Assembly: GCA_900618795.1 (NCBI GenBank)
Contig: UYJD01000001.1
Coordinates: forward strand, 148,310-212,309
Reading direction: 5' to 3'
DNA from: Cyanodermella asteris
Lineage: Eukaryota > Ascomycota > Lecanoromycetes > Ostropales > Stictidaceae
Length of the DNA stretch: 64,000 nucleotides
A model generated the notes under the pieces. The model was given only the letters and a program-made list of their open reading frames with translations, had not been told where the DNA came from and did not search any database. Below, in pieces: positions 7,905 to 55,641 of this stretch (the first letter of the stretch is position 1; each line of letters begins with the position of its first letter). The position numbers and the translations under genes were made by a program.

Positions 7905-8052
7905 TTAGCTGGGCACTGGGCTAGGCACTGAGTATGATACTGAGGCAGGCACTTGGCTGAGTCCCTGGATAGGTGCTTAGCTACCTAGGTGTCTAGCTGG
8001 GTTGTTGGCTGGGTACTTGGGTGCCTGCCCAGGTAGTCGCACAGCTAGACTG
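7905..8052 (+). repeat. degenerate 12-bp tandem array, locus 1
   Basis: About twelve head-to-tail units of 12 bp, for example ttagctgggcac, tgggctaggcac, ttggctgagtcc and ctggataggtgc. The unit at 8005-8016 equals the family consensus TTGGCTGGGTAC exactly. One unit carries 3 extra bases. The array is intergenic, in the desert between the regulator and the kinase. Three further loci of the same family lie at 23786, 42046 and 55100. Confidence 0.85.
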
Positions 8053-9119
8053 GACACCAGCGGCGATCTCTTTCCACCCTAGTAGGTAAGAAAGTGTCTT
8101 CGCGGCACGGCAATAACGCATCGGCCGGCTCCTACCTCCGACACCGAATTTCACTTCAGGGTCCCTTGAACAACCTCCTTTATTTCGAACTCCATCCACC
8201 CTTGCTCGTGTGTCAGCAACATGAGCCACTTTCGCGACCACCATCCATCCCTCCTTCTTTGCTTTACGTTTTTGAGGTTCCATTCGTTTGCGTCGCAACC
8301 ATCGTGATTTCTGTCCCACGCAAAAAAAGCGAAATGCGATGCACCTTCGCCTGGCCTCGCCTATTTGCCCACGTCGTATCGGCCACGGATCGACACGGAT
8401 CGACCTTTGGCTGCGCACGTAGCCGGCCTCGTGCGCGAAACAATAAATCATTTTTTTCTAAATCGCGCAATCGAGGGTTGTTCGACACGATCGTCGTGCG
8501 TCAGCCAAGTGTTCGCGCGAGGCCGACGTTCATAATCACAGAGGAGACTTCGGGTAGGTGCATTGAGGCGTGGTGTTCATCTGATCCAAAATTTGCCCCA
8601 TGTCGTTCTCATTCGAAAGGCGATGCTTTGTCCTACTCACGCATGTGCTCTGGATGACCATGGCATTTGCAATAACAAACTTTCATCAATCTGATTATAT
8701 ATTGTGGGCGGAAACCTGCCGCGGCCTTGAAGACGGCCCCTATCTTAGGAATTGAGTCCACGTCTGAAAAAGGGGTCACTGGATTCGGGCGATTGCATGC
8801 GAGCATGCTGATGTGAGGGCGGTTGACATGGGCCCGCCATACCTGGGGTGCGGCCGCCACTTTTTGTAGCAACGACAATTTGGAGTGGTGGAACCTGGAG
8901 GAGAGTGGACTATCAACTGGTCGGAGTCACGATTTCGATCGCTTTCATGTCACAGGTAGCAGTATTGGGTATGAAGCGAGTAAGTTTGTGTATATGTCGG
9001 TTCCTTTACCGATTTCATTTTGCAGTACAAGGTGGCTAGGTATGCATTGTTCTAATGAATTAGTTCTCCGTCAAAAGGGGAATAAACGCCAACTATTATC
9101 TGCGATCCTAATTTCGGGC

Positions 9120-10721
9120 TCACTTTGCCAGCTTTGAAAAGGAAAGAGCGATACCTTGACCAGCGAGGGCGTCAGTCGCGGCCCTGATGTCTGCCGCGTT
9201 CTTGCGCTTGCTTTCTGCCATCGCCTGCGTCAACGCCTTATCGTGATCTGTCAGCTCTACAACAGAGATCTTTCGAGCTTTACCTTTCCACTTGGCACCT
9301 GCGTCCTTGATCTGTGCTGCAGCTCGCTCGACTCGTGCTTGAGCCTTGTCTTTCTCCTCTTTCAGCTTGGCAATAGCTGCCGTTTCCGTCGCTTCCGTCT
9401 TTGCTTTCGCTTCTCTCAGATTTGCAATCTCGACGTTGAAGCCTTCTTCTAGCCTTTCGGCACGCTCCTCGAGGGACTTGGCTTTTGCAAGTGTCTTGCG
9501 AGCGATCTCGGCCGGGTTCGACATGTTGGCCACCTGAGCAGTGGCATATTGTTGCTTGGCCTTTTGCCGCAACGCGTCAACTTCCTCACGGAGGCGAGCG
9601 ACTTGCTGGTTGGCGTCCTCTTCGTATGACGACAGACAGCCTAGTTTTCCGCGGAAGCCCGCCCAGACGTCTTTCTCGTGGGCTATTTTTGGTCCGTACG
9701 AGTCAGTAAGCCGGATGGCATCCGCGGGTGAGATCGAGCGCAACATTTCCAGTACTTTCTGGGCCCGGCATTCGGACTTCTGTGTCCCGTCCCATTCAGC
9801 ACGAGTGGGCTGCACGAAAGCAGGTCGAAACGGCTTCATCTCGGACGCGTGGTAGAGGTCTTGATGAATCTCCCGCCGACGCTCATGGAACCATTCGGTC
9901 GGTCCGTAGTCGTGCAGGCTCCGGAAACCCTCTCCGTTGAAAGAAGGCAGTTTCACGTCCATGACCCAAGCCAGCACAATGACCGCGCGGCAAACATCCA
10001 CTGCCGGCGTATTGTAAGTGATTCCGTTCCTCCAATGCCAGTCAGGTTCCCAAATCTGGAGCGGATAGCGCCACGGATCTGATTTCCCAGCGCCGTTTAC
10101 GGGCCGGACCAGGCCGAAATCGGCGAGTTTGACGGTCGTGATGTCTTTCAAGCTTCCGGTGAGATTTAGATTCGCAAAGAGAACGTTATCGGGCTTGATA
10201 TCGTTATGCAAGGCATGGTGTGTCCGATCGAGATAATCCAATGCCGAAAAAAGTCCCGGTGCCAGAGTGCTGTACACCCAAGTCATGGGCAGCCCTCGAT
10301 TGACGATGCGATACAGATCGCCTCCATCGCAGTACTCGAGCACCACATGCTGCGCGAGGCGCATAGCGCTATTCGTCCCATCGCGGCTTTCTCTGCTGCG
10401 CCCAACACCATTGTTCGGGTCGGGTCTCTTCGTCGGCACTTCGAACGCATCGAGAACCTGCACGATGTTGGGGTGTTGAAACTTCCTGTGCACCCTCAGC
10501 TCCTCGCGAAGTTCCTTTTCGTTTGTACTCAGGCTGCAATCTGGGTTATCAGTGCGCGCGGTCTTGATCGCCACGGGAAGGTTGTCGTCGCGCCGGGCCA
10601 CGATCACTTTTCCAAACGTACCCTGCCCCAAGAATGATTTGGTGCCGAATTTGTACGCACGAGTTTTGCTATGCAGGATCGTGACGGATGTGTCCGAGGA
10701 TGACGACTCCGGAGCCGACAT
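9120..10721 (-). CDS. divergent protein kinase with coiled-coil tail
   Basis: Single-exon gene of 533 residues. The N-terminal half (about 25-330) is a protein kinase fold: glycine loop GQGTFGKV at 32-39, VAIK lysine at 53, catalytic loop HNDIKPDN at 172-179 and DFG at 201-203, so the core catalytic residues Lys, Asp and Asn are kept. The usual HRD arginine is Asn. I see no clear APE motif in the activation segment, and the helix-F region reads DVCRAVIVLAWVM in place of the usual DVWSLG type. Residues about 370-510 are rich in Glu, Lys, Ala and Arg and look like a coiled coil. The start at 10721 is the first ATG before the kinase core. It resembles no kinase I can name. Activity is plausible, but the C-lobe is atypical. 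An intron acceptor-like sequence lies just upstream, so a 5' UTR intron is possible. Confidence 0.85.
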   Translation of the reverse strand: MSAPESSSSDTSVTILHSKTRAYKFGTKSFLGQGTFGKVIVARRDDNLPVAIKTARTDNPDCSLSTNEKELREELRVHRKFQHPNIVQVLDAFEVPTKRPDPNNGVGRSRESRDGTNSAMRLAQHVVLEYCDGGDLYRIVNRGLPMTWVYSTLAPGLFSALDYLDRTHHALHNDIKPDNVLFANLNLTGSLKDITTVKLADFGLVRPVNGAGKSDPWRYPLQIWEPDWHWRNGITYNTPAVDVCRAVIVLAWVMDVKLPSFNGEGFRSLHDYGPTEWFHERRREIHQDLYHASEMKPFRPAFVQPTRAEWDGTQKSECRAQKVLEMLRSISPADAIRLTDSYGPKIAHEKDVWAGFRGKLGCLSSYEEDANQQVARLREEVDALRQKAKQQYATAQVANMSNPAEIARKTLAKAKSLEERAERLEEGFNVEIANLREAKAKTEATETAAIAKLKEEKDKAQARVERAAAQIKDAGAKWKGKARKISVVELTDHDKALTQAMAESKRKNAADIRAATDALAGQGIALSFSKLAK

Positions 10722-11216
10722 GGTAGCCTGCGTTTGGCGATGCTTGAGCTAGAAAAATGGAGAAAGAATGCACAATTGTTGGTAATGTTGTTTCGAAATG
10801 TCCAACCCAGTCGACGGAACCCAAGGATAGCGAGTGAAGAAGGAGTAGGAGGCCGGTGATAGTGAAGCCGGCGGGGAGGGTGAAGAGCCAAAGGAAGAAT
10901 ACCATCTCGTCGGGCTCGCCATGATTTATCAACTATTTGCAATTGTCAATGTTGAAGGTGATCAAAAGCATTGTGACACGCATAGCATGACTGTTTGTCG
11001 CGTCACAGCATACGTTCCATGTTCCCAAAAGGGAAACTCATTCAGGGCGGTGTGGTACCAAATATCAGGCGACGGCAAATACGAAAGGCTTTGAACAAAA
11101 CATGCGCACACAGTGAATGTGTAAAAATGAGAATAAAAAAAACAAATAAAAAAAATCAACACGCTGCAGTCTGGGTCGAGTGTGTTTTTGCAACTTGAGA
11201 TGGCTTGAGCCGTAGG

Positions 11217-11473
11217 CGCGATGCTCGAGTACCAGGCGTCAGTCCGCTGCATACCCCCGATGGGGCTGAATTTGACTTCATACCTTCGAACGTACCTTTG
11301 ACATGAGGACACACAACCACCCATCCTTTCCAAGCATTCCCACGTCGATTCTCGAGTACCAGGCGACAGTCCGCTGCATTACCCCCGACGGGGCTGAATT
11401 TGGCTTCGAAACCGTTGAACGCACCTTTGGCCCAAGCACACGCAACCACCCATCCTTCTGCAAAGCATTCCCA
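11217..11473. repeat. tandem duplication of a ~128-bp block
   Basis: Copy A begins at about 11217 and copy B at about 11344. Both contain CTCGAGTACCAGGCG, then CAGTCCGCTGCAT, CCCCCGA(T/C)GGGGCTGAATTT and ACCACCCATCC, ending in AAGCATTCCCA. The copies have diverged by substitutions, many of them transitions, and a few indels. Neither copy carries a supportable reading frame. Confidence 0.85.
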
Positions 11474-11839
11474 GACCGACAACCCAGCTTGTCCGCCAAC
11501 AATGGCTCTGTCAACATTACCACAATGCTCTTGTCCCAAACCCGACCCGGCAAGGCTGCGCGCCAGCGGTCCCAACCCCGGGGGAGAGGGGTCCCTTTGA
11601 TCCAAAAATCGTCTCGCAAGCCCTATAAAAAAAGAAAAAAAAGGGACCGCCTTTGACCAAGGGGACGGAACAAAGCCGTGGCCATCCAGTTGACAATCCG
11701 CCTTGTTGTCTTTTTTTGCTATTATTCTCTCTCACCAGGAAAATCTTGCAAGCGCACTCTTCGCACAGCTTCATTGTTTTCCACAACCTTCCAAAGCATC
11801 AAACCTCGCTTTTTCTTTTGCCCAGCCACCCATTAACGC

Positions 11840-12134
11840 AACGAGCAACCTTTCGAGCAAGAGACGAAGCAACAGAGACACGACTTTTGCAAACTCAAGC
11901 CTTCTCACAACAACCTCACTTTCTGCCTTTGAGCAGTAAAAATTTCGACGAACAAAGCTTTTCAGGACAGCTTTCTCGGACCACAGTCATTCGATCATCA
12001 GCGTCACTTTCTTGCTCATCACGCAATCATAACGAAGCGGCCTTCGAGCAAGCAATCGAAGCAAAGAGACACGACATTCGACTCCACAAAACTTCTCACA
12101 GCCTCACTTTGTGTGCCGTCGGCGGTAAAACTTT
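11840..12134. repeat. imperfect direct repeat in the orphan gene leader
   Basis: Copy 1 (11840-11943) and copy 2 (12031-12134) share an ordered series of blocks: AACGA, TTCGAGCAAG, CGAAGCAA, AGAGACACGAC, CTTCTCACA, CCTCACTTT and GGTAAAA/AGTAAAA followed by T-rich sequence. Spacing between copies is about 191 bp. Copy 2 ends about 35 bp before the ATG at 12170, so the repeat probably lies in the 5' UTR or core promoter. Confidence 0.75.
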
Positions 12135-12169
12135 TTTTTCCACGACCAAAAGCACAAGCCTCCCCGATC

Positions 12170-13330
12170 ATGGCGTCGCTTTTCAGCAAGAAGTTGGCGG
12201 TCAAACTGCTCACCAAAAAGAGCAAAGCTCTGGAGCTGGACGTCAACGTCGACAAGAAATTTCCGAGATCCGGCTGGTCGAGGGGTGTCAAGGACACCGG
12301 GAGACCCTCGACCCCACTCAAAAACATCGTATCGCCATCCGACCTGCCGGATCCTGTCGTCTATATTCGCAAACATGCCGCTCGGCCGGCACTCACTCGC
12401 GCCTTCGCAAAGGCGCCCATGGTCTCACATCCCATGACCCCACAGCCCATCGTCCCACAAGAATCGATGTTCGACATGGACATGGACGTGGACGCAGACA
12501 GCGGCGCCGTCGAAACGAAGCCGGCCCAGCAATCACATCAAACAAACATACTCGTACACGGCCACCCGCAGTCCATGATCCCGGAGTTTCCCTGGGCAAA
12601 TCAATCTGAAGACAAGGAGTCCTGGGCCGACATGGTCGAAGTCGAAATGACTGACGATAACAAACAACCAATCGTTGCCCCAAGCTGGGCAACGACGCTT
12701 CCCCACGTAAGCGTGTCTTCCACAAAGACAGAAGCGACATTGGCAGGCATCGCAGAAGAAGACGAATGCGACGAAATGGAAGGGGTTATCATACAGTCCA
12801 ACTCACTTGCCTTGAAGGAAGAAGCCGCATATGCGGGAGACGAAATGGAAATTGACGAAGAATACGACTCATATGTACACGCCGATACGGAGTCGGAAAC
12901 AACGATGGCGAAGCGGGGAATCCTCCCGTGGGCCTCCGATGAACAGAATTTTCCTGATTGGTCAAATCCAGATTTCCAAGAATGGGTCAGCGGTAACTTC
13001 TGCCAAGGCACGACGATTAAACAGTTAGTGGAAACGTTGATGGTGTATGGGTACAAGGACAAAATCTCCGACGACTATGGGCACCTTCATTACCTCGTGA
13101 AGGTGATCATCAAACTGACACATAACCTCAAACTGGGCAAGCAGCCCACCCCACCGATACAATCTGGGAGACCTCGAGCCAGGTTTATTCCCATCGAATG
13201 GCGCAGCGCAAACTTTGAACAGTTCCTGCAAGTTCATGATCAGGAAAGGAATATGGAAAGGGCACGAGAGGAAGTTAAAATCGAACTTTCGGAAGAATTC
13301 AGTCAGACTCGGGCAGAGCTCGATTTTTGA
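12170..13330 (+). CDS. acidic orphan protein of unknown function
   Basis: Single-exon frame of 386 residues that I do not recognise. The start is the ATG at 12170, giving a basic N-terminus, MASLFSKKLAVKLLTKKSK. The frame stays open a little further upstream but only from a GTG. The middle is acidic and Met-rich (a DMDMDVDADSG stretch near residue 100 and EMEIDEEYD near 225). A more ordered segment around residues 245-320 is aromatic-rich, with PDWSNPDFQEWV. The C-terminus is charged and probably helical. There is no signal peptide or membrane segment. Unlike its neighbours it has no evident conserved domain, and its leader is duplicated. It may be a lineage-restricted gene. Length and coherent codon use support it as real. 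Confidence 0.6.
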   Translation: MASLFSKKLAVKLLTKKSKALELDVNVDKKFPRSGWSRGVKDTGRPSTPLKNIVSPSDLPDPVVYIRKHAARPALTRAFAKAPMVSHPMTPQPIVPQESMFDMDMDVDADSGAVETKPAQQSHQTNILVHGHPQSMIPEFPWANQSEDKESWADMVEVEMTDDNKQPIVAPSWATTLPHVSVSSTKTEATLAGIAEEDECDEMEGVIIQSNSLALKEEAAYAGDEMEIDEEYDSYVHADTESETTMAKRGILPWASDEQNFPDWSNPDFQEWVSGNFCQGTTIKQLVETLMVYGYKDKISDDYGHLHYLVKVIIKLTHNLKLGKQPTPPIQSGRPRARFIPIEWRSANFEQFLQVHDQERNMERAREEVKIELSEEFSQTRAELDF

Positions 13331-13456
13331 AGAGCTCCAATGAGCTCAACACAGCTTTATTGACCTCGACCAGCAGCTAGGAAACGACTTGGCATAGATT
13401 GCAGGCTTTGGTGAAGCGTTTGAAGCGTGTGAAATAAACAGCGTTTCGAAACTGCA

Positions 13457-13600
13457 GCATTTGGAAGATGGTGTGTTTGGAAAACGAAGTCTTCGGAAGA
13501 CGGAGTGTTTAGAAGACACATTGTTTGGAAGAAGTCTTCGGACTTTGCAGTGTATGGAAGATGGAATGTTTGGAGGTTGGAGTGTTCGGAGGATGGTGCA
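13457..13600. repeat. degenerate ~15-bp minisatellite
   Basis: Nine or so imperfect units of the type GTGTTTGGAAGATGGA, of 14-17 bp, in the convergent 3' region between the orphan gene and HisRS. Its unit differs from the 12-bp family found elsewhere in the window. Confidence 0.65.
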
Positions 13601-15773: not shown

Positions 15774-15961
15774 AAGGTACCTGCCCACTCTCTTTTCTCT
15801 TCCGCGCGCCGTCTTTGCCTGTGACGCATGGTCTGAGCCGCCGGCGCTAAGCGCTGCTAATTGCCGACGGCAGCACTGCCGCAGGCAACATCGACACTCT
15901 ATCTTCAATCCAAGTCGTATGATGGGAATGTGGGCAAGAAAGAGCTCTCAGTCCACATATC

Positions 15962-18540: not shown

Positions 18541-18643
18541 GCGGATTGAAGACCGCCGCCACATAGATTTCGGCGCTGCATTCATCGCAACTGAAACCAC
18601 CATTGACACACATTGGGTAATCTGGAGTATAATCGGATCTCAC

Positions 18644-19948: not shown

Positions 19949-22323
19949 AGCACTTGGTCTGCTTCGTCAATATGATACTCTGTTGGACGTGATGTGTTCT
20001 GGGAGGACCACATCGTTGATATGCGTTCATAATGCTGTGTCCGCTGTGCGGTTGCATGATGGTCGTCCCAGTCAACACAGCGGGCATATTCTGATACGAC
20101 GCGGCGTCGACACGTCTAGGCACCGCACAAGGTTGGTGAAGAACGCCAATCTCCATTTGGCCGATCCAGGAGTCATCGAGCGACTTGGTGTGGGGAAGTG
20201 GACCGAGCAATCTGCTTGGCTGGAGGTTTTGGTCCAAGAGACTGCAAGGTTTCAAGTCTCCAGGGAGCCTTGTGACTTTGTGAGGCAGCCAAATCTGAAT
20301 GCGCGCGCACTGCGATTTCGCGCTACTTGCCCCTTTCCAAAGCTTTTTACGGTGCATCAAACATTTGCAGCGAAAGGCAGACCGACATCAGTCATTGCGC
20401 ACATACTTACAGAACTCCTTCGACAGCTACTTGTGATCGTCCTGCTGCAAATACATGAACGAGTAGAAGTAGGGCTATTCATCTAGCTATCTACGTCGGC
20501 AGCCTTCTCGGTATTTTTGATAGTGTTGATAGGGTTCCTGCTCAGGTAAATAGGCGATCAAACATCTCCGTAACGACTGCGATTAGCCTGCCTTGAGCAT
20601 GGTTCTTTCATACCTGATCGCAGCCGTACGATCGGTTAGAATCAATCCCATCACCACGATCGCGCTCAGTACCTTGTCAGACCTGTTAGTCCATGATCCA
20701 TGTGCACTTGCGCAGACATGAGAAACTTGCTGCGTATCTGCGCCCAACTTGCATAGCCAAAACTCTGACAAGCAGGGCCTGGAGGGTGCACTAGGATTAT
20801 AGCAAGTCTCTTGTGTTTGCATCTGAAAGCATACAGCCAATAGTCAGCGTGCTTTGTCAAAGCTTAGAACTCTGTTTTGGTTCGGATGTTCAGTATCCGG
20901 CCTCGCTTCCACACGTTTACACGCGACTTTGGGAGGTTTGGTTGCTCTGGGTTTGCTGTTGAAACGAGCATCGGCTGTTGCGGCCCAACGTTTATATTTC
21001 GGCACTGTTTGTCGTTGCAAAATCTGCCCATACTGAAATGCGTTTTTGAAAGCCACAGACGATGAGATCATGGATGGATCACGATGATGAAGAAATCCAT
21101 AGGTGTCACTGTATTTTCAGTACTGGATGTAGCCCAGTAGCCCAGAGCTATCGACCACTGGAACAAGATCGAGCATGACAAAGAGGGCAGTGGAAAGACA
21201 TGCGCGATTCAGTTTAGCGCCCGTCAAGGGCTGTCAGCCTGTTTCGCACTTCACTTCATCCCTTGGTCGAGACCGAAGCGGCGCAAGTCGCACTGGGTGG
21301 TGACGATCTGCGAGCCAAACGCTTGGACGCCACGTATCGACCAATGAGATAAGGCTCATTACCAGCTGTTTGTGACTTCATCCATCAACTGAGACCCAGC
21401 CGTAGACCTGCGTCTTTCAACTAACGACCGTGTAGCGTTCGCCCTGGCTCTTCCCCGTCATTTTCGGCCCAGCCCCATCATCTGTGGCTCTTGCCCGTTC
21501 ATCTTCGCGGTCCAATGCTCTGTTCTATGACTGCAGACTGCTGCTTTGTTTCGTGTAACTTGCTTCATTTGTTTCTTTGATGACCATCGGCAGCGAGATC
21601 ATTGGAAGAGTTCACTGGCAACGGCTTTTCATCTCCACTGGCCATGCCGCTGAGGTCATGGTCCAGAACCAATAAGGCACGGTGTACCAAGCGGGGCTAA
21701 ATCTCCCTCCACCTTTTGTCGTTTCGTTCACGCGTTTACACTTTTTCCTCTGGGGGCTGTGTTGGGTGGGTGTCCACGAGGCGGCGTTGAGGCCGCGAAC
21801 AACGAAAGTTCTCTCTTCGGCATCTCAGCTTCCGTCCAAAGGAGTAAGATGTGAGACGACGTGTTGCAGGCTAGTCTTTTTTGAGCATCCCTACCGACTC
21901 ATGCAGCAAGTGTGGTTCCATTCAGGGTAATTGAGCTGCTCGAGAGGAGTCTAGTCGCAGGCCTGACATACCATTTCTGTCATAGCCGGTTTTCGCAGCT
22001 TGGTTATCTTGACGCATTCGGCCACTGTGCCTGAAGCTGACGCCGATTATGAGAGAGCTTGAGCTCCTGGTCGACCACTCAAGACCAAGCTTTCCAAGCG
22101 ATAGGACCGTTGCCCGCATCGGCCAAGTGAAATGAGAGACCCCTAAGAAAATGCCTGAATTCAAGCACCTCCTCTTTTTGGATTTCCTATAAGAACGCAG
22201 CTTGGTCTCCTGCTTGCCGCATCCCGGCTTTGCTCTTCGTCCACCTCTTGACTCTCGCAGTTCAGTATCATACCTTCTTTTTGCGCTTTACCGTGAGACC
22301 TTCAAGCCATACACACAGTCAAG
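19949..22323. other. 2.4-kb intergenic region, no supported gene
   Basis: Several frames of 60-167 codons occur on both strands, but none shows a domain, a plausible protein composition or splice partners. The right end is the promoter of the GPI-protein gene and contains TATAAG at 22188-22193. I see no tRNA or repeat here. Confidence 0.55.
22188..22194 (+). promoter_or_regulatory. possible TATA box of the GPI-protein gene
   Basis: TATAAGA lies about 130 bp upstream of the ATG at 22324, after a CT-rich stretch, and suits a strongly expressed gene. Position and sequence only. Confidence 0.4.
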
Positions 22324-23353: not shown

Positions 23354-24572
23354 GCGTGAGGCGCAAGGATTGGTGAAAAGAATTGGCTAGTTGGCCGTGA
23401 TACCTAATGTACATACCCAATTTGATGCGTTAAACATGCAATCTTCCTCTCTTGATGCCATGTGAATGGTAACAGTGTGCCTCGTACCCAGCCTGTCTCC
23501 GTGCTCGGCAACATTTCGTCCCACCAAGACCGCGTTCCTACGAGAGGTATCGCACAGCTCCTAGCTGCGTCAATTCCGTGCCTGTCTCATGCGCAAAGGC
23601 CACAGTCTGTCCGCGCATTCTGCGGCCAATCTTGTCGCAGACATGCGCCGAGAGTTCGTAAATCCATTGGCTGAATCACCCGAAATTGCTGTCCCGCTGT
23701 TGAGCTATAGACAGATATACTTTGGCACCAATCTGCGAAGCAAGGTGGCAGGCTTGAAGTCGCTGCTGCTGGCCTATGCAGCCAAGTACTGGCCAAAGTT
23801 TTCGATCAGATCCCCAGCCAAGCACCTCGCTCAGTACCCAGCCAAACACCTGGTCAAGTCCCTAGCCGAGTATCCAGCTAAGTAAGTACCTGGCTAAGTA
23901 CTCAGCCGAGTGCCTGAGGAGATACTTCAGGGAATATTCAGTTCGATATAAGTAGCTGAGGTCATACCTACACAAGTATTCACATCCGTCTTACACAAAC
24001 GACTTGATTCGACAGGGAATCTCTTTCGCCCGGCTCGAAAGCCAGTGCTTGAAACTTGGAATGATTTGAGCTAGCTTCCATATCTATGCTACGTATACAC
24101 AGCGTGATCGCTCGACGTCAAATCAACCAATACTGTTTGATCAGCGGAAGTCCTTGCACCAGGACTCAGGAAAGTCCTGAAGTGTATCATTAATCGAGCA
24201 CCAATGAGACGACATTCCATTGCGGTCTCGTTACATGTACACAATATGTGGTGTGGAATGAGGACCCCTGTTTGCGCGGCTCCCGCGCCAGCATCGGCGT
24301 GCTTCCATGGAAACGGCTGGGTTCCAGCATTCCTGAGCGCAGTCTCAGAATCTGATCGGCGTGGTGGAATGAAGCGGCGAATTCGAGCCATGTCGAGCGA
24401 CAGCTGCAGTTTGCACATTGGCCAATGGCCGCAATGGCTTTTGGCATGGCTCTAGAAGAATGGGGCTTTGTCACACTGCCCTCACACATGGGCCATGGGA
24501 TCGACGGGTTGTGATTCATGAGCGGAGCTAGGTACAGCTCGACATCTCAACCACTCATTGCTTTGTCATGAA
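23354..24572. other. intergenic region with 12-bp satellite locus
   Basis: Convergent 3' ends of the GPI-protein gene and the flavoprotein gene. Apart from the tandem array at 23786-23945, I see no supportable gene. Confidence 0.6.
23786..23945 (-). repeat. degenerate 12-bp tandem array, locus 2
   Basis: Thirteen units of 12 bp with one 4-bp interruption: gtactggccaaa, atccccagccaa, gcacctcgctca, gtacccagccaa, gtccctagccga, gtatccagctaa, gtacctggctaa, gtactcagccga and others. The unit at 23834-23845 is the exact reverse complement of TTGGCTGGGTAC, so the array runs opposite to loci 1 and 3. Confidence 0.88.
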
Positions 24573-28556: not shown

Positions 28557-29298
28557 ATGTTTCTGGTAGACTACATGATTTTCACTCTACGAATTGGATG
28601 ACTTATAAATAAAACCAATACTGCTCTAGGCCGGTGGGCAAAAGTCGTTGCGCAGGGCAAGTAGTACAGCTTCTACTCACACTATTACTTGTACGTCTCC
28701 CTCGATTAATACTTGTATAGGTAGGTTATGAACCTGAGACTAGGACATGTCTCGAGGTGTTCCTAGAAATCAATACACTGGTCGTTGATCGAAGACTTCT
28801 AAAGGTGTCAAAATACTCATGTCGGCCACGACTTTCATACTACTGCCTGCGAAGCTCGGTAGCGAAAAATGCAAGACAAATATTCGAATGACCAATTGTT
28901 CGAAGGGGGAAAAAAAGATAAAAAAAAAGAAAGAAAAGCTCAGACAACGATTTTAATGTCGATCTTTGTGACAGGCAGCGTTTAGTCACATGCACAGTGG
29001 GGAGCTCAGAACGAGCCGCAGCCGTGACTGACACGCCGGGAAGCCGCATCTTGCTCGTACCATTCTTCCTTCGCGACAACATCCCTACAAGAGGGTGAAT
29101 CGACACCAAATCATGCGCAAGTCCTCACCCTCACTTCACCGCTACCGCACCTGAACCCATAAATGCGGCAGTCTCAGCTCCCCCTTGCTTGAAAAGCTTC
29201 CTACAACTTCCACTCTTGCCCCGCAAACCCGCAACTCCGACTCTCTCAACCCCCATATACCATACCCGAAAGAAATAATAGCTCGAGCCACCACGATC
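28557..29298. other. intergenic region, no gene seen
   Basis: Intergenic sequence between two plus-strand genes. It includes an A/G-rich run near 28906-28937. No coding or RNA gene is supported. Confidence 0.5.
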
Positions 29299-33254: not shown

Positions 33255-35012
33255 ATGTTGAATTTCACTCAACTTCCGTTCGAACTCCGAGACACCGTGC
33301 TCAGATTCATGGCTGACGGAACGAGTCACGCAATGAATGAGACTTGGACTTCTCCGCACAACTTTCGGCATTCAACTCAAGGGCCCTGGATGAAGGGTTG
33401 TGTATCCCTTGTCTACCTCGACCTCATCGTCGGTATATTGCTCATTGATCATCTCCTCGACGCCTTCAGCAAGATCGGCACGATAGGCAAGCTATTGGCC
33501 TGGGAGTTGCGAGAGGAATTGAAAGGCCAGTTCGAGCAGCAGGAAGGACACAGCCATGACCTGGATGAACGGTTCGACGCAAAAAGACTCTCACTGCGAA
33601 GCCGGACCCTGCTACGCAATCTCGATATCCTCCACTTTCTGAACAAGCTGAAGGAGTCGCTTTGCGAGGAACACTACGCTGCCATCCTGGCCCTCGACGA
33701 CGTGAGGCTGCTTGAAAAACTACGAAGACAACTACCCCAGCTCGAAGGCTGGAACGCTCGCCTGCCAAGCTGCGCATGCGCGTTCAATACAGGTCTGCAC
33801 TTGGACGGAGAGAAGCGCGACGCCTGGCACAAAATGAATATGGTCTGTTCCGACGATCCTCAGACACGCGGTTGCTACATGAAGTCTGATTTCAACGACT
33901 ACCTGAATCGGTCGCGAGCACAAGACAAGCAGATACCGAAGGTGTGCTACGAACCTGCACCGTGGTGGATGACACAGTCTTCGGCTGCTAGTAGCTGCCT
34001 TCCCATCAGCAGCAAATCCCCAAGAATCGATGTTGAGACATGCGATGATCCCAATGCAGCGCGCAACACCCCAGTTGGGGGAGCGCCAGCAGCTGCCAGT
34101 TTGCTCCCATCGGAGAATTCACCGGAGCCTGGCTGTCCCTGGCAAGGTTGCGCTTTGCCGATGAGAGTTCATGATGCGGCGCTGCCTTCTGTCGCTCCAA
34201 TCATCCCAGACAGTGAGACTCTGTTCATGGTCGACGGTGTTTTGACAACTGAGGATACATTAATCATTGAGGATACTTCCACGACTGGGGATACTCTGAC
34301 AACTGAGGATTATTCAATAACTGAGGATCATTCAATAATTGAGGATTATCCAACAACTGAGGACAGTTCAATGACTCACGGTAGTCTGGCCACTGACGAG
34401 ACTTTGACGACTGCCGGTATTTGGACAAATGACGGCATCTGGACAACTGACGGTGCTTTGACGACTAGCTTCGCATTGACTACAAACATCATTTCATTGG
34501 GAGAGTTACCTCCAATGACTGACCCCGTCTGTCCGATCGACTTTGATCCATTCACTGAGGCTGTCTTGACAACTGATACAATCGCAACAATGGAAGCCTT
34601 CTTGTCATGCGACTCTACGCCAACATATGATACTGTGTGTTTGTCTGACCTTGATTTGACACATGATCATTTGTCGAGAATCCATGTCATTTCGGACTCC
34701 GTCCCTGAACCGAGATCTGCAACCCCCGATAGCTGGCAAAGCTCTGAACTTCCTGCATTCAGTTTCAATCTCTTGCTTCACGAGTCATGCAAAAAGACGT
34801 ATCCGACACCACCCTGCTCGGTCACAGGCAACGGAAGTGATCTCGATGGGTCCATCAGAAAGCGAAGGATGGAAGGCACCAACTGTGAGCTTCAGAAACC
34901 AAGGAGCGGGAAGCCAAGGCACAAGAAGAGGAAGAGAATTACGAGGACATACCCCATGACGTTGGCTAACATAGGATGGAGGAAAGGTCACGTTCCTGCG
35001 TCGTCGGAATAG
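33255..35012 (+). CDS. F-box-like protein with 6-residue repeat tract
   Basis: Single-exon gene of 585 residues. The N-terminus reads MLNFTQLPFELRDTVLRFM, F-box-like and similar to the neighbouring short gene. Residues about 60-230 are helical and charged. Residues about 330-401 form a tandem array of twelve 6-residue units of the type (L/S)TTEDT, encoded by an 18-bp minisatellite. The C-terminus is Lys/Arg-rich (KKRKR, RKRR), a possible nuclear localisation signal. I do not recognise the protein as a whole; the F-box reading is tentative. The frame is intact through the repeat, which supports a translated gene. Confidence 0.6.
   Translation: MLNFTQLPFELRDTVLRFMADGTSHAMNETWTSPHNFRHSTQGPWMKGCVSLVYLDLIVGILLIDHLLDAFSKIGTIGKLLAWELREELKGQFEQQEGHSHDLDERFDAKRLSLRSRTLLRNLDILHFLNKLKESLCEEHYAAILALDDVRLLEKLRRQLPQLEGWNARLPSCACAFNTGLHLDGEKRDAWHKMNMVCSDDPQTRGCYMKSDFNDYLNRSRAQDKQIPKVCYEPAPWWMTQSSAASSCLPISSKSPRIDVETCDDPNAARNTPVGGAPAAASLLPSENSPEPGCPWQGCALPMRVHDAALPSVAPIIPDSETLFMVDGVLTTEDTLIIEDTSTTGDTLTTEDYSITEDHSIIEDYPTTEDSSMTHGSLATDETLTTAGIWTNDGIWTTDGALTTSFALTTNIISLGELPPMTDPVCPIDFDPFTEAVLTTDTIATMEAFLSCDSTPTYDTVCLSDLDLTHDHLSRIHVISDSVPEPRSATPDSWQSSELPAFSFNLLLHESCKKTYPTPPCSVTGNGSDLDGSIRKRRMEGTNCELQKPRSGKPRHKKRKRITRTYPMTLANIGWRKGHVPASSE
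34242..34457 (+). repeat. coding 18-bp minisatellite, 12 units
   Basis: Twelve consecutive 18-bp units with consensus near TTGACAACTGAGGATACT. The first seven units keep the ACTGAGGAT core well, while the last five drift to ACTGACGGT. All units are exactly 18 bp, so the reading frame is kept throughout. It encodes the 6-residue repeat of the F-box-like protein. Confidence 0.92.
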
Positions 35013-40807: not shown

Positions 40808-42809
40808 AGCAACCGGCCTAACCTGCTCGTCAGATCAAAAACGTTGTGAAGAGAGCGCTTCACTCACATATTCCCCTGCCACCTGCGTCTTTATCTATAG
40901 CCTTCGGGTGAAATAGTATACAGAAAGAACGATGAAGAAGAACGACGGTAGCGCGACAGCGAACGGATTGAGCCTCAGTGACTTCGCCGAGACGACACAA
41001 GACAAGGCAGGACTATTATGGAGATGTACACAGAAAGTATCATCGACGCCATGTCGCCAACACGAGCGTCGAAGCGGACACATATTGCCCAGATACAAGC
41101 GCTGTGGCCGTGTGACTAAGGGGGAGGCCTCAAAGTAGGCCGTCGCGCAAGACGGAAATAGCTGTGCACTGTGGTTGGTGACCCACACATACTGGTCCAC
41201 ACGCTCAAAAGCTTCTTCCTCTATCTACTGTACCTTAAGCGCATGCAACTTGAAGAAAATTTATTTGACCGGGCAGCATGATGGCTTACTCGTTGTTTAG
41301 ACGGGTCTGAGGAGGATATTGCCGTGGTGACAGAACAGTCGCCTCACGGACTTGTCCTTGTACTTGTATAATCAGGAGAGACTGTTGGGAACCACATCCC
41401 GACCGCACGTGGCGGAAATGATAGGGACATAGACTTGACGATCTGAATGTCGGGTTTTGACAGAACTGTGAAAGGTACGTGGATGTTGAGATGCTGGGAA
41501 AGGAGTAGTGGTGGGACGCGCTGCAGCTGTGTCACCCGCGCGGTTAGCTACCGTGGTACTTCACATGCAAGCGCCGAGCTATCGCCCGTCACGGAGTTGC
41601 CCAGAGTGCACCGCACCACGGTCACAGTCTTGCAATGCTTTGGATAGAGGCAATAAAAAAAATACGACGAAGGGGCCCCGCTTGCTATACATACTCTCCG
41701 ACGCAGTAAAACACGGGCCTCATCGACCGGCTTCGACAGCAATGTTCCACGTTTGCCGTGTGTTTCCACTGCTGTGTATGTGCAGGGCTGAACAATTAGG
41801 AAATATGGTGCAATCCTACGACGGTCGCAGGAGTTTCGCAAAAAGTCAAAACCAGTCGTTCGGGTTCAGATCACGGACCGGTACTCGGTCGAAGGCTTAG
41901 CACTTCCCTTCGAGACGGTCTCTGAGTATGTCTACGGCGGAATGACATCGCGGCTACCCCCTTGGCCAATAGAAATCATGCTTCTGCGTGAGCCGTCGTT
42001 CATTTTCGTTGATAACGGCATAAGGCGGAGGAAGTCAATTGGTGCTTGGCTAGGTACTCAGCTGCAGACCTGGTTGGATCCCTAATCGAGTGTGTAGCTA
42101 GCTGCTTCGCTGGGTGGTCCGCTGGATGGCTAGTAGGGTACTCATTTAGGTACTTGGCCGCACGGCTGAACAGGACGCCGGTGAAAACTTTCCCTCCACC
42201 TTAACAAAGGAGCTCAGCAAGACGATACAGATATACAGTTTGAGACAGAATGTAGTCAAACACGTAGCTTGCTTACTCATGAACAGCAGCGTGAGCATTG
42301 ATCGCGGCTTGTAAGGCTGAAAATGTTTTTCGACAAACAAATTCATGTCATTCAAACGAAACTACCGAATTTCGCGTCAGACATGAAGGTCGACAAGGTG
42401 TCAAGCCATATACTCAATTGTATCCTTGCCTGCAAGAATTGACACGATCTGCTACTTCATGATATCGCCAAACCTTTGACCGCGTATCCGCCATGTCCGT
42501 GTAGGCTACGCGGTGTGTGGAAATCAAGCGCTCGTTGTTATGGGCGCGTTCTGTTTGCGGCGGGGAAGTTCGACAATTTCGGTCCGTAACGGTTGATATG
42601 CTCCACAGCATCCGCCTATCTTCGAACGAAGACTTAATCTTTGATATCTGGTATTCAATTGATGCATTCAAGGCCCTCCGGGCTGTCTGTATAATAGTGA
42701 AGTTTATATACAGCTCACTTTGTAAGCATTATATATACATCTTCCCACCGTTCCTTCCATCAGTAACAGACGCTGCTAGCTCAGCTAGCATCTCAAGTTT
42801 CTAGTTCGC
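40808..42809. other. 2-kb intergenic region
   Basis: It contains the 12-bp tandem array at 42046-42177 and probably an unplaced first exon of the GT34 gene within about 300 bp of its left end. I found no other supportable gene; frames of up to 130 codons lack coding character. Confidence 0.5.
42046..42177 (+). repeat. degenerate 12-bp tandem array, locus 3
   Basis: Eleven units of exactly 12 bp without indels: ttggctaggtac, tcagctgcagac, ctggttggatcc, ctaatcgagtgt, gtagctagctgc, ttcgctgggtgg, tccgctggatgg, ctagtagggtac, tcatttaggtac, ttggccgcacgg and ctgaacaggacg. Same orientation as locus 1. Confidence 0.88.
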
Positions 42810-49157: not shown

Positions 49158-50392
49158 GTTGGCGGATGGAGCGGATATAGAGTTGAGGAGGAGGTTCGAG
49201 GTGTGGGAGGTGAGGTGCAGTCAGGTGGCGGAGTTGAGCTGGGGCGGACTTGGAGCTCACCGCAAGCTGGGCCAGCTGAGCGATGTGGTTGGCTGGAGGA
49301 CATCGGCATGAGGCACAGCTGTTCCCCGCAATCCTGATTGCATCTCCCAGGGCGGGAACACAGAAGTCATGGCGCCGATGACTTTTGAGGTCAGGAACGA
49401 CGGTGTTCTTTTACGCGTCCGCACATGTCCTCAACTACTGTTCGATCTATGCCTAGACATGCCTACGTGGTCGTGAAAATGGCCCCACTCGTGTCAACCC
49501 AATATTCATGCAGACACACGACAGACTATTCGCAGACATGTTCGTCAAAACAAGGAGGATAGGCGCTCCGCAAGGACTCTAGACCGGCCGCATGCCGCCG
49601 TTTCAGCTGCAAGGTCCATCCTACTTGCAGACAATGCTGATCTGAGCGGAGCGATCAAAGAAGAGAAATGAGATTGTGCAGGACGATCTGAACAGAAGAT
49701 CTCGGCCTTTGTCCCAGTAGATAACATGTTTTCAGCATTGTATCTGTGTATTCAAATGAACTGTTGTCGCAGAAAAAGCCGAAGCAAAAGTATGGGCTAC
49801 AGCCTGCGGTGTGTGGTCTCGGACCAACATCACAACGATGTCGTCTCAGCGCTTCCTCGCATATGCAGACCACTAAGATTTATTGAATCGACTCGAAATA
49901 ATTCCACAGGCTGACGTCCCGTCAGCACTTAACTCAACGCACGTCGTAGATCTCCACCCATCAACCCACTATACTCCAAGAGTGACTCAAGATAACGTGA
50001 AGGATGCTCAGATACATGGTCTGATTCGTACAGTCAAGTCGGAATTTCGGTAGCAGAAGTCGTCTTATATGCCAAACGAGTCTGAAGCACAGCGCAAAAC
50101 TACGGTTCTCCCGAGGTGGGGCGATCGGTTGGTATCTGGTCCACGGCACAGATAGGCTGAAGCGTCTGCTTACGCGCTTTTCAGCTACTGCATTTACACA
50201 GAGTATCAGTCGTTCATGATATACATCAGTGCACAGCATATATTTGGACTGTATAGCGAGCATCTTGCATTCAGTCATCAGCATTTGCCTGGCGTGACCA
50301 CCTAGAGCCCAGATCTTGACACGCGCGGGGCGGCCGCAATTGTGGTGTCAACAACTTTGGACAGATCAAACAACGTCGCTACTGGTCTGACC
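49158..50392. other. 1.2-kb divergent intergenic region
   Basis: Upstream of both the mannosidase (minus) and the dehydrogenase (plus). No supportable gene or repeat was seen. Confidence 0.5.
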
Positions 50393-51676
50393 ATGGCCGG
50401 ACCAAGTTCGAGACAGGATCATCTATTACTCACGCTGCCATTTCCCGAGCCAAAGGCAGTTACGGATGCACTGAAGAAAAAGTACACTGGACTCAAAATT
50501 ACATACCAGAATCTTGGCAATATCAAGTGGAATATTGATCAAGTATCGGATGGTAAGACTGGACACTTGTATAATGGGACTAGCTAACAATGCAGATACT
50601 TACAAAGATGTTACCATAATTGGAACCTTGGTCGCCCTACCATCGAGCCCCGAAGCGGTGCCGAACCTAGGTACGTGATAGTCTGCACAGCTGCGACGCC
50701 AAGTGACTGACGAATGGTATTCAAATAGATTTTGTGCAAGTATTCATGGCTGGCACTGACCACATCGAAAGCTCTCCACTCTACCAGGATCCGAGCATAG
50801 TCATCGCCAACAGTAGTGGTATTCACGGGCCGACCATTGCGGAATGGGTCATCATGACCATGTTGGTGCACAGCCGACAATATGACATTCTACATGACGG
50901 GCAGAGGAAGCACGAATGGGGCAGAGGACATGACCAGGGTAGTGCCTTTCACAAACTCAGCGACAATGTTGGCAAACGCTTGGCTGTTCTTGGATATGGC
51001 AGCATTGGTAGGCAGGTTGCGCGGCTCAGCAAAGCCATGGGAATGGACGTGATCGCCTACACGGCGAGCCCACGTAATACACCCGAAAGCAGGAAAGACG
51101 ATGGATATCGGGTTCCCGGCGTGGGTGACCCGGAAGGCGCATTCCCCTCCCAGTGGTTCAGTGGCGGTGAAAAGAAGGATATTCACCGATTTCTCAGTCA
51201 AGATATCGACTACCTGCTGGTAAGTGTGCCTCTGACAAAGAAGACAAAGTACATGTTGGGCAAAGAAGAGTTCGACATTTTAGGCAAGAAACATGCTTTT
51301 GTCATCAACATTGCTAGAGGTGATGTGCTTGTGCAGGATGAACTCATCAATGCCCTGAAAGCGTATGAAACAAGCGAGGGTAAAGAAGGCATTCGGGGAG
51401 CAGCTGTGGATGTGACGAGCCCGGAGCCGCTACCAAATGACGATAAACTCTGGGATGCACCAAACATCATCATCACTGTAAGTCGTGGTGCCGCGTTTTT
51501 CTGACCTGCGCTGATGAACCGGACAGCCGCACATCTCGGGGGTGAGCAGGAACTATACCGAGAGGTGCTTCGACGTACTGGACCAGAACATTGGTCGATT
51601 CCGTGAAGGCAAGAGGCTGCTCAATGTTGTTGACCGGGAAAGAGGCTATTCATCGAATGCAAGCAAGCAGCAATAG
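50393..51676 (+). CDS. D-isomer-specific 2-hydroxyacid dehydrogenase
   Basis: NAD(P)-dependent oxidoreductase of 377 residues in four exons: 50393-50552, 50596-50670, 50729-51477 and 51527-51676. All joints keep frame. The nucleotide-binding domain has AVLGYGSIGRQVARLSKAMG (GxGxxG) near residue 170. Catalytic residues are Arg in NIARGDVL, Glu in SPEPLP and His in the final-exon PHISG, the Arg-Glu-His triad of the family. The N-terminal substrate domain includes FVQVFMAGTDHI. Residues between the Rossmann strands (RKDDGYRVPGVGDPEG and a Lys-rich stretch) are longer than in bacterial members. The true substrate cannot be told from sequence. The start is the ATG at 50393; earlier in-frame codons are only GTG. 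Confidence 0.9.
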
Positions 51677-52691
51677 AGCTGGAGCGTTTCGTGGCAGCGA
51701 CCGAAGCATCACGTTGATGGTCTCACCATGGACGGTGATCATGCTCATCCAGCTAGTCCTCACTCATGTTGGAAGCATTGAATTATTCGACTGTGCAATT
51801 CACCTGAAGATAGAATTAGTGCCTGTCCAGATGAAATCGCTACTCTGGCAAGTGGAAAAGCAACAGTATCAGAGACCCGTTTATAAGCATCGGCAGCCGC
51901 ATATGTCGATGCAGCCGCGCCTTTTCCGGCTCTTCCTAAGCATATGAAGGGTGAAATAATCTCATCAGGTAGAAAGTAGGAAATCACAAAGGGCGCTTAC
52001 CGGGGAAACTGATCCGTCATCGCGTCACCACAAAGAACATAGAGACTCTGAGCTTGGTTCGCCGTGGACGAGGACATGCAAACTAGAATCGACGTCGGCT
52101 TTGGGCTGCTGCAATTGCTGAAGCGTCTGAGCAAAGCTTCGGCAGAAGAAATTTAAAGCTCAAACTTGATGCGCCGGCCTTTGCAGTGTGCTAAACCCGG
52201 AGTCGCAGAGTTGCGTCAGTGGGCCGCAGGCTGGCTTGGGCGCCCCCCCGGCGCGTCTTTGCATGACTTCCCGCTATACGACTCCCCTGAGGCTCAAGGG
52301 GACCCCCTAGAAGCGGTATCTTAGCTGGGCTCTTGGCGGAAACAGTGGGCACAGAAGCCGAGATATTCATCAGAGCAAGGGTCCGTCAGAGGCTTGGGAA
52401 GCTGAAGCCATAGCCTCGTCACTTTCAGATCCAAGCATCCGAGACACCGATCCAACCGTTACCATCCACTGCCGCGCCTCGCACTACGTTTCGTTGTTTT
52501 CGCGCCCAGCAAGCGATGTAGCTGCTGTGAGCTGTCTATGCCCGACAGCGCAAGTTAGATACCGGGTACGCTCCCACGGCGCCTACAGCTGAAAGCGCCT
52601 GCTAATCCATGCCCCAGCCTCGAGCTGCCAGTCCATACATAACGAATTCCCTCTAGTCCAGCAATCACAACCAAGACAAGCCGGGAACGCC
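51677..52691. other. 1-kb intergenic region, no gene seen
   Basis: Intergenic between two plus-strand genes. A short G/C block (CCCCCCCGGCGCG at about 52243) stands out. No gene or RNA is supported. Confidence 0.5.
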
Positions 52692-54842
52692 ATGGCCACT
52701 GATCAAGTCTATCAGATTGCCTTGCCAATCCTGCAGGATGACAACATTGAAGAGGAGGAGAAGACCGACAAGCTCGAAGACCTATTGCGCAAGGAGACAA
52801 CATTGACCGGCAGGCCCCTCGAAGACGCTATATTAGGCGTCCTCTGGCGACACCGAGACTCCAAGGCATCGCCAGCACGCCCTCCACTGGGAGCGCGTAA
52901 ACAATCTCCAGCACCTTGGCAGATACCTCGAGCAACGACCCCTCTGGCATCCCCGCCACTTAGCGGCGTCAGCCCTGCCTCTGCCATCACCCATCCCGGC
53001 CTTTCGAGAACGAAATCGTCCACCATCTCGCCATATACATCACCGCGACCATCACCGCGGCTTGCGTTCGCCAGCCCGATTCCTCATAGTCCGAACTTGA
53101 GTACATATCAGTTCAGTGAGCCCTCCGCCCATCCGGCAGACGATTATGGCGACTACGGCTCTGACACGGTCGACTGGCTTGTCAACGAGGAAGCACCTTC
53201 TCGTCCATCATCGGCCGGTGGTATAAGTGCAACTGGATCAACATTGAGTGCGACGGCGACAGCATGGCAACAGCCTCTGGAGGCGCAGATGTCTCCTTAC
53301 GACATGCTGCGCTCAGTGCTCGGGGAGACGAAGAGCGATGATGAGATCGAAAACGCCCTCGCCCAGCATGACTATGATTTGAGTGCAACGCTTGCTGCCC
53401 TGATGGCACAAGGCGGAATGTTTGATGACGCTTCTTCAGGGCAGGATGGCGATGGCAAGATCATCGTTGGAAAGAGCATGCTGTCGTCACCACCCATCAG
53501 CATCCGCCAGACACAGCCCAACAACAAGTCCTCAGTGCCCTGCAAATACTGGCTGCAGACAGGCCAGTGTTTGAGAGCAGACTGTCGGTTTAGTCACGAT
53601 CTGACTGGGCACGTGTGCAAGTACTGGCTGATGGGCAACTGCTTGGCTGGCGACAGCTGCCTATTTTCGCACGATCCAGCTGCGTTGGTGGATAATATGA
53701 CCCTGAACGGCGACTCAGTCACGAGCTCTCCTCAAGGTCCCAGCTTCCAGGTTCAGGACTATGATGCGTTCCCCAACCTGCAATCAGGACTGAACTGGTC
53801 ACAATCCTTGCGCGCAAATGCGGGCACATTTACACCATCGAACCGCAGTGTTTCGGGGTCTTTCACGAGCACGCGAGCCCTTATTGGTTCACCAAGAAAT
53901 GGTGGCTCGCGACCTACGAGTAGGCATTCGTCAAGACCTGCCACGCCATCGCATTTGTCCTTCAATGACGAGGAAGCATTTCCGACACTGGGTTCGGCAG
54001 GGAAGGGTGGGAAGAAGCATCATGGCAAAAGGGGCGGCCACGGTCACGGACCCAAGGAGCCGAACTCAATGGCCGATATCGTTCGTATGTCTCCTGGTCC
54101 GTCTCCTGCTTCGCTACGAAAAGGTCTGGTCAAGTCGAAAAGCTACTTTGGCAGCTCGGAGAACAGCGCGGCCGCAAAAGCGATCCCCGAGCCAAAGCAC
54201 ATTCCGTGGCTGGAGACCGGCGAGAAAGTGAACCAAGCCTACATCAAAGCCCGTCAAGACGCTTTCAAGCACGGTGGGTTGCGGAATAAGTTTCTACAAA
54301 GCGCTGCACAAGCGTGGAATCGCAACGACGCCCGTGCTGCGAAAGCCTTGTCTCTTCGTGGTCAGTCCGAAAACGAATCGATGCGTAAAGCTCATCGTGA
54401 GGCCGCTCGAATATTGTATGACTCGCGAAACAAGGACCCGTCGGCGACCGACTCGGAATTGTATGTCGATCTGCATGGCTTACACCCCGAAGAAGCAGTC
54501 GAATATCTCGAGCGTGTACTTATGGAGCAGCAAACCAGCAGTCGGCCGATATATGCCATCACAGGTACCGGGCATCACAGCAAGAACGGCAAAGACAAGG
54601 TCGGGAAGGCTGTCCGACAGTGGTTAGCGGAATGGAAATATGCCTTCCGCGAATTCAGCGTCCCCGGCGATCGAGGTAACATGGGTGGTATTCTGGGCGT
54701 GGATGCCCGTAGCTTCGATCGAAGCATGCTGGACAAAGCCAAGGCATCAAAATATGGAGAAGAGCAGCCGTTGAAAGCAGGTGAAGATACAAAGGTCAGG
54801 GTCGTGAGAGACATACCGACCGGTCCCAAGTTGAAGGCTTGA
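52692..54842 (+). CDS. CCCH zinc-finger and Smr-domain protein
   Basis: Single-exon protein of 716 residues, probably RNA-linked. A helical N-terminal segment is followed by a Ser/Pro-rich linker and a short CUE-like segment near residue 210 (PYDMLRSVLGETKSDDEIENAL). Two adjacent CCCH fingers (CKYWLQTGQCLRADCRFSH and CKYWLMGNCLAGDSCLFSH) lie near residues 279-325. A DUF1771-type helix (SMRKAHREAARILYDSRN) precedes a C-terminal Smr domain near residues 589-690, with YVDLHGLHPEEAVEYL and ITGTGHHSKNG. Smr domains often cleave or bind nucleic acid. The arrangement is known from fungal and other eukaryotic CCCH/Smr proteins; the exact role is not established from sequence. Confidence 0.88.
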   Translation: MATDQVYQIALPILQDDNIEEEEKTDKLEDLLRKETTLTGRPLEDAILGVLWRHRDSKASPARPPLGARKQSPAPWQIPRATTPLASPPLSGVSPASAITHPGLSRTKSSTISPYTSPRPSPRLAFASPIPHSPNLSTYQFSEPSAHPADDYGDYGSDTVDWLVNEEAPSRPSSAGGISATGSTLSATATAWQQPLEAQMSPYDMLRSVLGETKSDDEIENALAQHDYDLSATLAALMAQGGMFDDASSGQDGDGKIIVGKSMLSSPPISIRQTQPNNKSSVPCKYWLQTGQCLRADCRFSHDLTGHVCKYWLMGNCLAGDSCLFSHDPAALVDNMTLNGDSVTSSPQGPSFQVQDYDAFPNLQSGLNWSQSLRANAGTFTPSNRSVSGSFTSTRALIGSPRNGGSRPTSRHSSRPATPSHLSFNDEEAFPTLGSAGKGGKKHHGKRGGHGHGPKEPNSMADIVRMSPGPSPASLRKGLVKSKSYFGSSENSAAAKAIPEPKHIPWLETGEKVNQAYIKARQDAFKHGGLRNKFLQSAAQAWNRNDARAAKALSLRGQSENESMRKAHREAARILYDSRNKDPSATDSELYVDLHGLHPEEAVEYLERVLMEQQTSSRPIYAITGTGHHSKNGKDKVGKAVRQWLAEWKYAFREFSVPGDRGNMGGILGVDARSFDRSMLDKAKASKYGEEQPLKAGEDTKVRVVRDIPTGPKLKA

Positions 54843-55641
54843 CTGGTGATGAAATGAACAATGTATGGTAAAGTAAACAAAATTGAAAAGAGCCGTTCCA
54901 CACTACTCCGCAAGACCCGAAATAAAAGATACCGCCCTCGAAATCCGTGAAGACCGTTCCGTCAAGCTCAAATGCTCGTGACAAGTCCGTTCGTTTGCTG
55001 ACGATTGTGCAATCCAGATGTTGCGAAGTCAGGATGCAGGTGTAAAATCGAATACCTCAAGCAATCCCTGCCTGACAACCTAGGTTGTTGAGGTTGACAG
55101 TACCCAGACAAGTGCCCAGACTAGTGACTTCAGTGGTTTCTAGGCCGATATCTAGGCAAGTACCCGGGTAGTATCAGAACCAGGCTCCAGGCAAGCATCT
55201 CGGCAGGCGTCTTGGTAAGTATCCAAGTCTCCGACCTCTGCCTCGACCGCTGGGGGGTGTGTCTTCTCAAGGTCCTCACGAGACCAGCGGCCGAGGTACC
55301 GTCAGAACGACCTGCGACACGACTCCGGGGCATACGCCTCGGGCAACTCAACGCAATTACTGAGAGATTGCCCGCCACCTCGTTCGGTCGCCTGAGTTGA
55401 TCTGGCTTGCACTCAATGATCGATACCCAGCATGACTCAAGCCCGGTCCCATGACTTGGGCTGAGTCAAGCTGGCCAAGGGGACACGGAGATGTCATCGG
55501 GGTTGTTTGCACATCTTCGTCGTGTCTAGCACCTGATCGTTATCGATGACCGCCGCCTTGGTGGTCCGAGATGCCGATTTCGTCGTTCCGTTCGGCGCTC
55601 ATGGATCTCTCGAATTCTGATGTTTCCTCATCTGTTGTGCT
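54843..55641. other. convergent intergenic region with 12-bp satellite
   Basis: 3' flanks of the CCCH/Smr gene and the NLR gene. Apart from the array at 55100-55230, no gene is supported. Confidence 0.55.
55100..55230 (-). repeat. degenerate 12-bp tandem array, locus 4
   Basis: Eleven units, ten of 12 bp and one of 11: gtacccagacaa, gtgcccagacta, gtgacttcagtg, gtttctaggccg, atatctaggcaa, gtacccgggtag, tatcagaaccag, gctccaggcaa, gcatctcggcag, gcgtcttggtaa and gtatccaagtct. Orientation as in locus 2. Confidence 0.82.

Follow-up and report, generated by a model that had tools for sequence, protein, structure and literature searches.

The DNA analysed here, a window of 64,000 nucleotides from the ascomycete Cyanodermella asteris (C15:148310-212309, in a genome of 28.5 Mb and 25 contigs), carries fungal genes (an Ams1-type alpha-mannosidase, a Sec1/Vps33 protein, dynamitin, a Zn2Cys6 transcription factor and a Has1-type helicase) together with four arrays of a degenerate 12-bp tandem unit, TTGGCTGGGTAC. 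We asked what these arrays are. Most arrays of this kind are very probably the interiors of copies of one family of miniature inverted-repeat transposable elements (MITEs), bounded by terminal inverted repeats (TIRs) that start CAAGGCGGG and inserted with a 4-bp target-site duplication.

Four arrays with a rigid 12-bp register

A first-pass annotation of the window had reported arrays at four loci, and their positions and strands were borne out, as were the exact consensus 12-mers at 8005 on the plus strand (C15:156314) and at 23834 on the minus strand (C15:172143). Identity at a lag of 12, a test that uses no profile, was far above the level of shuffled sequence (∼0.25) at every array (Table 1): none of 1000 dinucleotide shuffles at any of the four loci matched the observed value, and lags of 11 and 13 gave 0.20-0.31. 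The chain scores in Table 1 come from a 12-column profile that was refined on the very four arrays that it scored; the top chain over six dinucleotide shuffles of the window reached 15.7 bits. The lengths first assigned to arrays 1 and 4 need to be revised, as array 1 is longer and the chain of array 4 can extend to 18 units (Table 1), and the description of the arrays as nearly free of insertions and deletions holds roughly, except that the units of array 1 shift register inside the array.

The arrays recur throughout the genome

The genome holds the exact 12-mer at 21 places (2 for the control), and a 28-mer spanning more than two array units, allowed up to 3 mismatches, was found at 170 places, compared to none for the pattern read backwards. 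This count takes overlapping and both-strand matches at one locus separately; the listed places group into 49 loci. Within the 264 kb that comprise the window and its surroundings, a profile trained on the real chains gave 28 chains of at least 16 bits, 13 of them with 50-259; a single shuffle gave 6 chains of at least 16 bits with a top score of 22.3. Thus, of the two outcomes named beforehand as speaking against a dispersed family, shuffles that do equally well and an absence of further loci, neither was seen: shuffles scored far lower and the loci are many. DNA searches with arrays 1 and 4 returned self-matches only, which is little informative because the search skips simple repeats and common words.

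Terminal inverted repeats define two related element classes

Four of the chains in the 264 kb are copies of a single dispersed sequence. When one of these copies was searched against the genome, 24 matches were obtained including itself; the others were 69-82% identical and many had common end points. Alignment of the dispersed copies revealed TIRs starting CAAGGCGGGCTGACAGAAGTC (class A). Comparison of flanks between loci revealed a related end, CAAGGCGGGCGGAAAAAAGTCTCTGCCGGC, beside strong arrays (class B). The TIR is ∼34 bp long and starts CAAGGCGGG, with the class B form CAAGGCGGG..GAAA.AAGTC.CTGCCGG. Direct pairing of the left and right flank of each array gave scores mostly at null level; the TIR was recognised only once flanks of different loci had been compared. 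With up to 3 mismatches allowed, a pattern common to both classes matched 433 places and its reversed control 14; the B-type 28-mer matched 123 places and the A-type 28-mer 128 places (0 for either control). The TIR pairing and overlap counts given below rest on about the first hundred places per pattern, among the matches listed.

Class A is a sister class of class B, with related TIRs and a weak 12-bp periodicity. Its length is nearly constant at ∼220 bp (10 of 12 further pairs measured 216-225 bp, the remaining two 213 and 304 bp). The lag-12 peak of class A, 0.349 versus 0.250 in shuffled sequence, has its significance overstated by the relatedness of the copies; it hints that class A descended from an array. 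Class B interiors have the tandem structure of minisatellites, with units that fall in the 10-100 bp range and a lag-12 identity of 0.560 versus 0.266 after shuffling. Three right ends of class B elements carry a one-base deletion. We also noted a recurrent TIR variant that lacks one G (CAAGCGGG; L067, L070, C10:210026, C25:25419 and C6:1632139), perhaps a sub-lineage, and a class B element at C15:292021-292401 (L026 end to L027 start) whose second TIR is broken by ∼160-180 bp of other sequence that may be a nested insertion. Contig C10 (931 kb) holds many elements among the matches listed and may be enriched.

Most arrays lie inside the elements

A facing TIR end within 400 bp was present at no fewer than 28 of the 49 array loci, whereas the chance expectation was 0.0024 per locus. 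From the remaining 21 loci we fetched 19, of which 10 had a flank TIR scoring at least 20, so that 38 of the 47 examined loci carry a TIR.

For the structure of single elements we used 20 + 20 fetched stretches, mainly chosen for a listed TIR or TIR pair; the complete elements number 34 (23 of class B and 11 of class A, three of them from the 264 kb). Each of the 23 complete class B elements had two ends of different types, one BL and one BR, with TTGGCTGGGTAC reading inward from the BR end; in three cases the margin was below 5 bits. Eight of the 23 elements had also trained the end profiles; the profile groups were set by end sequence and not by array orientation. Class B lengths cluster modulo 12 (R=0.63, n=23; 0 of 20000 random sets as high), and the copies at C15:292021 and C10:209789 share a common unit order: over 198 aligned letters 177 are identical, and the gaps add up to 36 columns. 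Therefore the arrays are copied along with the element, and they change by whole units.

Most elements are flanked by a 4-bp target-site duplication

We determined whether the 34 complete elements were bordered by direct duplications. An exact 4-bp duplication was found in 21 of them (18/23 in class B, 3/11 in class A); in the rest the flanks agreed at 3 of 4 bases (6 elements), at 2 of 4 (5 elements) or at none (2 elements). Duplications of 2, 3 or 5-10 bp were found in none of the 34, nor did any duplication appear when the end positions were shifted by 1-6 bases. For an offset TIR start the scoring rule shifted the end by one base; in addition, the end of L044 was repositioned by eye with its duplication already in view, so that the count without this element is 20. 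Four of the first 20 fetched stretches (L045, L053, L056 and L057) were left out of the duplication count as they had no clear second end; the L053 stretch stops just before its second end, which the B-type 28-mer search lists. Three copies with few or no units, L047 (85 bp), L061 (124 bp) and L062 (136 bp), also carry exact 4-bp duplications. The family thus shows the features of MITEs, namely TIRs at both ends, a target-site duplication of fixed length, short length and many copies; complete class B elements, at 124-359 bp (n=23), are too short for a transposase gene.

The duplication also bears on the superfamily. MITEs of the Tc1/mariner type duplicate 2 bp (TA), those of the hAT type 8 bp and those of the piggyBac type TTAA. 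None of the 34 elements had a duplication of 2 bp or of 8 bp, the duplications found being of 4 bp, and the 21 duplicated sequences were varied with no TTAA among them; all three assignments were therefore rejected. DNA-transposon superfamilies with 4-bp duplications include Ginger, Sola, Chapaev and Academ. As for a transposase, the search for hAT gave no match, with the control silent as well, and that for DDE_1 gave a single match (C24:674181-674393) with a silent control. Convergent TIR pairs 1-12 kb apart (165 distinct ends, among the matches listed) either had an end in common with a short element or were ambiguous.

Elements in the window

Scored with TIR profiles built from copies that lie elsewhere than in the 264 kb, arrays 1 and 2 and probably array 3 were found to lie within decayed class B elements (Table 1). 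The P-values are per flank and uncorrected, with 19 intervals scored; the null includes real TIRs and is therefore conservative. For element 1 the TIR pair scored 36.9, and no pair of 18 or more was seen in three shuffles or in the reversed sequence. The end types agree with array orientation in elements 1 and 2, and in element 3 the type is ambiguous. The 4 bp flanking element 1 (agtg/gtaa) do not match and those of element 2 (gaag/aaag) match at 3 of 4 bases. At array 4 the top flank score was 8.6 (p=0.02), with the extended form only, and none was obtained for the short form. Two class A elements lie between the arrays, and further copies follow at irregular distances in the neighbouring DNA; thus the roughly equal spacing of the four loci that the first-pass annotation had pointed out is an accident of what the eye could see.

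Table 1. Arrays and elements in the window (positions within the window; TIR and chain scores as defined in the text)
Feature	Position	Strand	Description
Array 1	7833..8048	+	18 chained 12-bp units in TTGGCTGGGTAC sense; 96 bits; lag-12 identity 0.475
Array 2	23774..23951	-	TTGGCTGGGTAC sense on the minus strand; 73 bits (23774-23905); lag-12 identity 0.479 (23774-23950)
Array 3	42034..42165	+	11 chained units; 66-73 bits; lag-12 identity 0.458
Array 4	55016..55230	-	11 units at 55100-55230, chainable to 18; 52 bits (short form), 66 bits (extended); lag-12 identity 0.414; no convincing TIR
Element 1, class B MITE, decayed, array 1 inside	7761..8085	-	BR 20.0 (p=0.0042) at 7761; BL 16.9 (p=0.0049) at 8085
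Element 2, class B MITE, decayed, array 2 inside	23741..24037	+	left BL 17.0 (p=0.0044); right BR 4.2 (p=0.08)
Element 3, probable class B MITE, decayed, array 3 inside	42021..42203	.	right 16.4 (p=0.006); left stub TAAGGCGGAGGAAGTC 3.4 (p=0.10)
Class A MITE, weak 12-bp periodicity	20373..20595	.	TIR pair 45.1 bits; flanks agcg/agca
Class A MITE	28626..28850	.	left 27.8 (p=0.0027), right 5.5 (p=0.05); left end is the 28-mer TIR pattern with 2 mismatches

A gene for a protein with NB-ARC and TPR domains (an NLR-like fungal gene, 55642-57645, minus strand) adjoins array 4. The window holds other tandem repeats as well: an 18-bp repeat (AACTGAGGATTATTCAAT) at 34245-34372, within an open reading frame (ORF) of 585 amino acids and no Pfam match (33255-35012, plus strand), a degenerate 16-bp array at 13460-13596 and a near-perfect GAGAT run at 4133-4220.

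How the arrays may have spread

An intact class B copy consists of a 4-bp duplication, a TIR of ∼34 bp, head-to-tail 12-bp units, another TIR and the repeated 4 bp. We propose that a transposase made elsewhere and acting in trans would recognise and cut the TIRs, and insertion with a 4-bp staggered cut would give the target duplication, so that the array would travel as cargo inside the element. Units may be gained and lost whole, for instance during replication or gap repair, and copies would then decay by substitution; those of the window are decayed ones. The units would be diverged and still in rigid register because the element arrived carrying an already diverged array. The first-pass annotation had named a mobile repeat as one of two alternatives to slippage. 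This agrees with the TIRs, the 4-bp duplication and the locked orientation at most loci, but slippage or unequal exchange also contributes, as indicated by the lengths modulo 12.

Several observations weigh against the MITE interpretation. No convincing TIR was found at 9 of the 47 examined array loci, and array 4 of the window is a further such case. Exact duplications are missing from 13 of the 34 complete elements, which were themselves mostly picked for having both ends match a TIR pattern, and none of the three array-bearing elements of the window has kept one. Arrays of a variant unit (C15:76620 and its relatives) have no CAAGGCGGG TIR. Moreover, no transposase partner or autonomous element was found, the families searched being hAT and DDE_1 only.

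Could the arrays instead be independent local minisatellites, each grown by slippage and diverged in place without any dispersal? Length variation by whole units and the nine loci without a convincing TIR are what one would expect of such repeats. However, a single consensus is common to several contigs, arrays are bordered by TIRs and 4-bp duplications, and distant copies have a common unit order, so that we regard this explanation as extremely improbable. A local origin without transposon borders was accordingly rejected on the TIRs at 38 of 47 examined loci, a rejection that does not cover array 4. A conserved non-coding element (regulatory, chromatin-related or a replication origin) held in place by selection, as the first-pass annotation had suggested, would fit the rigid 12-bp register and the intergenic position of the window arrays, which ORF and domain evidence supports. 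Yet the copies bear the marks of scattered insertions and are found at all stages of decay, their spacing is irregular and single-strand folding of the four window arrays was inconsistent (z = -2.15, -2.06, 1.72 and -0.15). We consider selection at these positions very improbable, and the suggestion is not supported.

Two further explanations would modify the reading of the arrays as MITE interiors. The array could itself serve the transposon as a series of spaced sites for the transposase or a host factor, in which case it would compare with the subterminal repeats of plant En/Spm elements. This would account for the fixed orientation of the array relative to the two end types, which is also expected from simple common descent, and for the lag-12 peak of class A, with the reservation about interrelated copies made above. 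However, L047, L061 and L062 keep exact duplications with few or no units, although these could have been deleted after insertion; such a function seems unlikely. Alternatively, arrays may have spread by more than one route, through a second element type with other ends or by capture of pre-existing arrays. The longest array in the 264 kb (C15:76620-76955, L011:8311-8646) consists of 28 units of the variant TTGCTRRGGTAC, matches five other places (relatives elsewhere are L082-L086) and has a left flank partly common to L082 and L084. As neither ends nor a target duplication could be defined for this type, which may be a decayed branch of the CAAGGCGGG family, a second route is conceivable but not what we would expect. 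Going beyond these alternatives, the CAAGGCGGG TIR and the unselective 4-bp duplication could mark a fungal DNA-transposon group with an undescribed transposase, in which the array is a spaced binding platform for the transposase or a host factor and at least two classes, A and B, evolved around it; we put this forward as speculation with a low chance of being right.

Comparison with known elements

The short fungal TIR elements mimp (Fusarium) and Guest (Neurospora) make TA duplications and have TIRs unlike those described here. MITEs with tandem repeats have been described in animals and plants, including (GTCY)n of Lepidoptera, Xmix/Xstir and miDNA4 of Xenopus and the bivalve pearl-type elements (PMC9659126), as well as Tetris of Drosophila virilis (PMC4079207). 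To judge from the portions of these papers available to us, they resemble the C. asteris family in that the elements are short, non-autonomous and bounded by TIRs, contain tandem repeats or gave rise to them, and vary in array length by copy; the C. asteris family differs from the animal and plant MITEs in its 12-bp unit, an array that nearly fills the class B interior, the 4-bp duplication and the fungal host. In the available part of a study of Mycosphaerella graminicola, MITE families form groups with a common TIR and target duplication but differing interiors, and so resemble classes A and B in being fungal elements with a common TIR and different insides (PMC4522978). The duplications given there are of 2, 5-6 and 8-9 bp, its one '4-bp TSD' belongs to a long terminal repeat (LTR) retrotransposon, and in that part of the text neither a 4-bp MITE duplication nor an array core is mentioned, unlike in classes A and B (PMC4522978). 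The matches listed for array-like strings and for the CAAGGCGGG string in the open PMC literature were unrelated by their titles, and no description of the CAAGGCGGG family was found among them or among the titles and passages that other searches of the same literature listed, repeat databases and subscription papers being outside this search. We regard it as a new family within a known type of element, the MITEs that have tandem-repeat cores, and as unusual for its 4-bp duplication and its array-filled core.

By this finding, the diverged units that keep a rigid register at scattered loci are accounted for as the decayed cargo of transposons, and arrays of this type in fungal genomes should be examined for TIRs before a role as conserved regulatory DNA is assigned to them. 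As a clean set of MITEs that has a 4-bp duplication but no known transposase, the family also offers a handle for finding the enzyme. Finally, the graded series of copies shows a minisatellite that rides in a transposon and changes by whole units.

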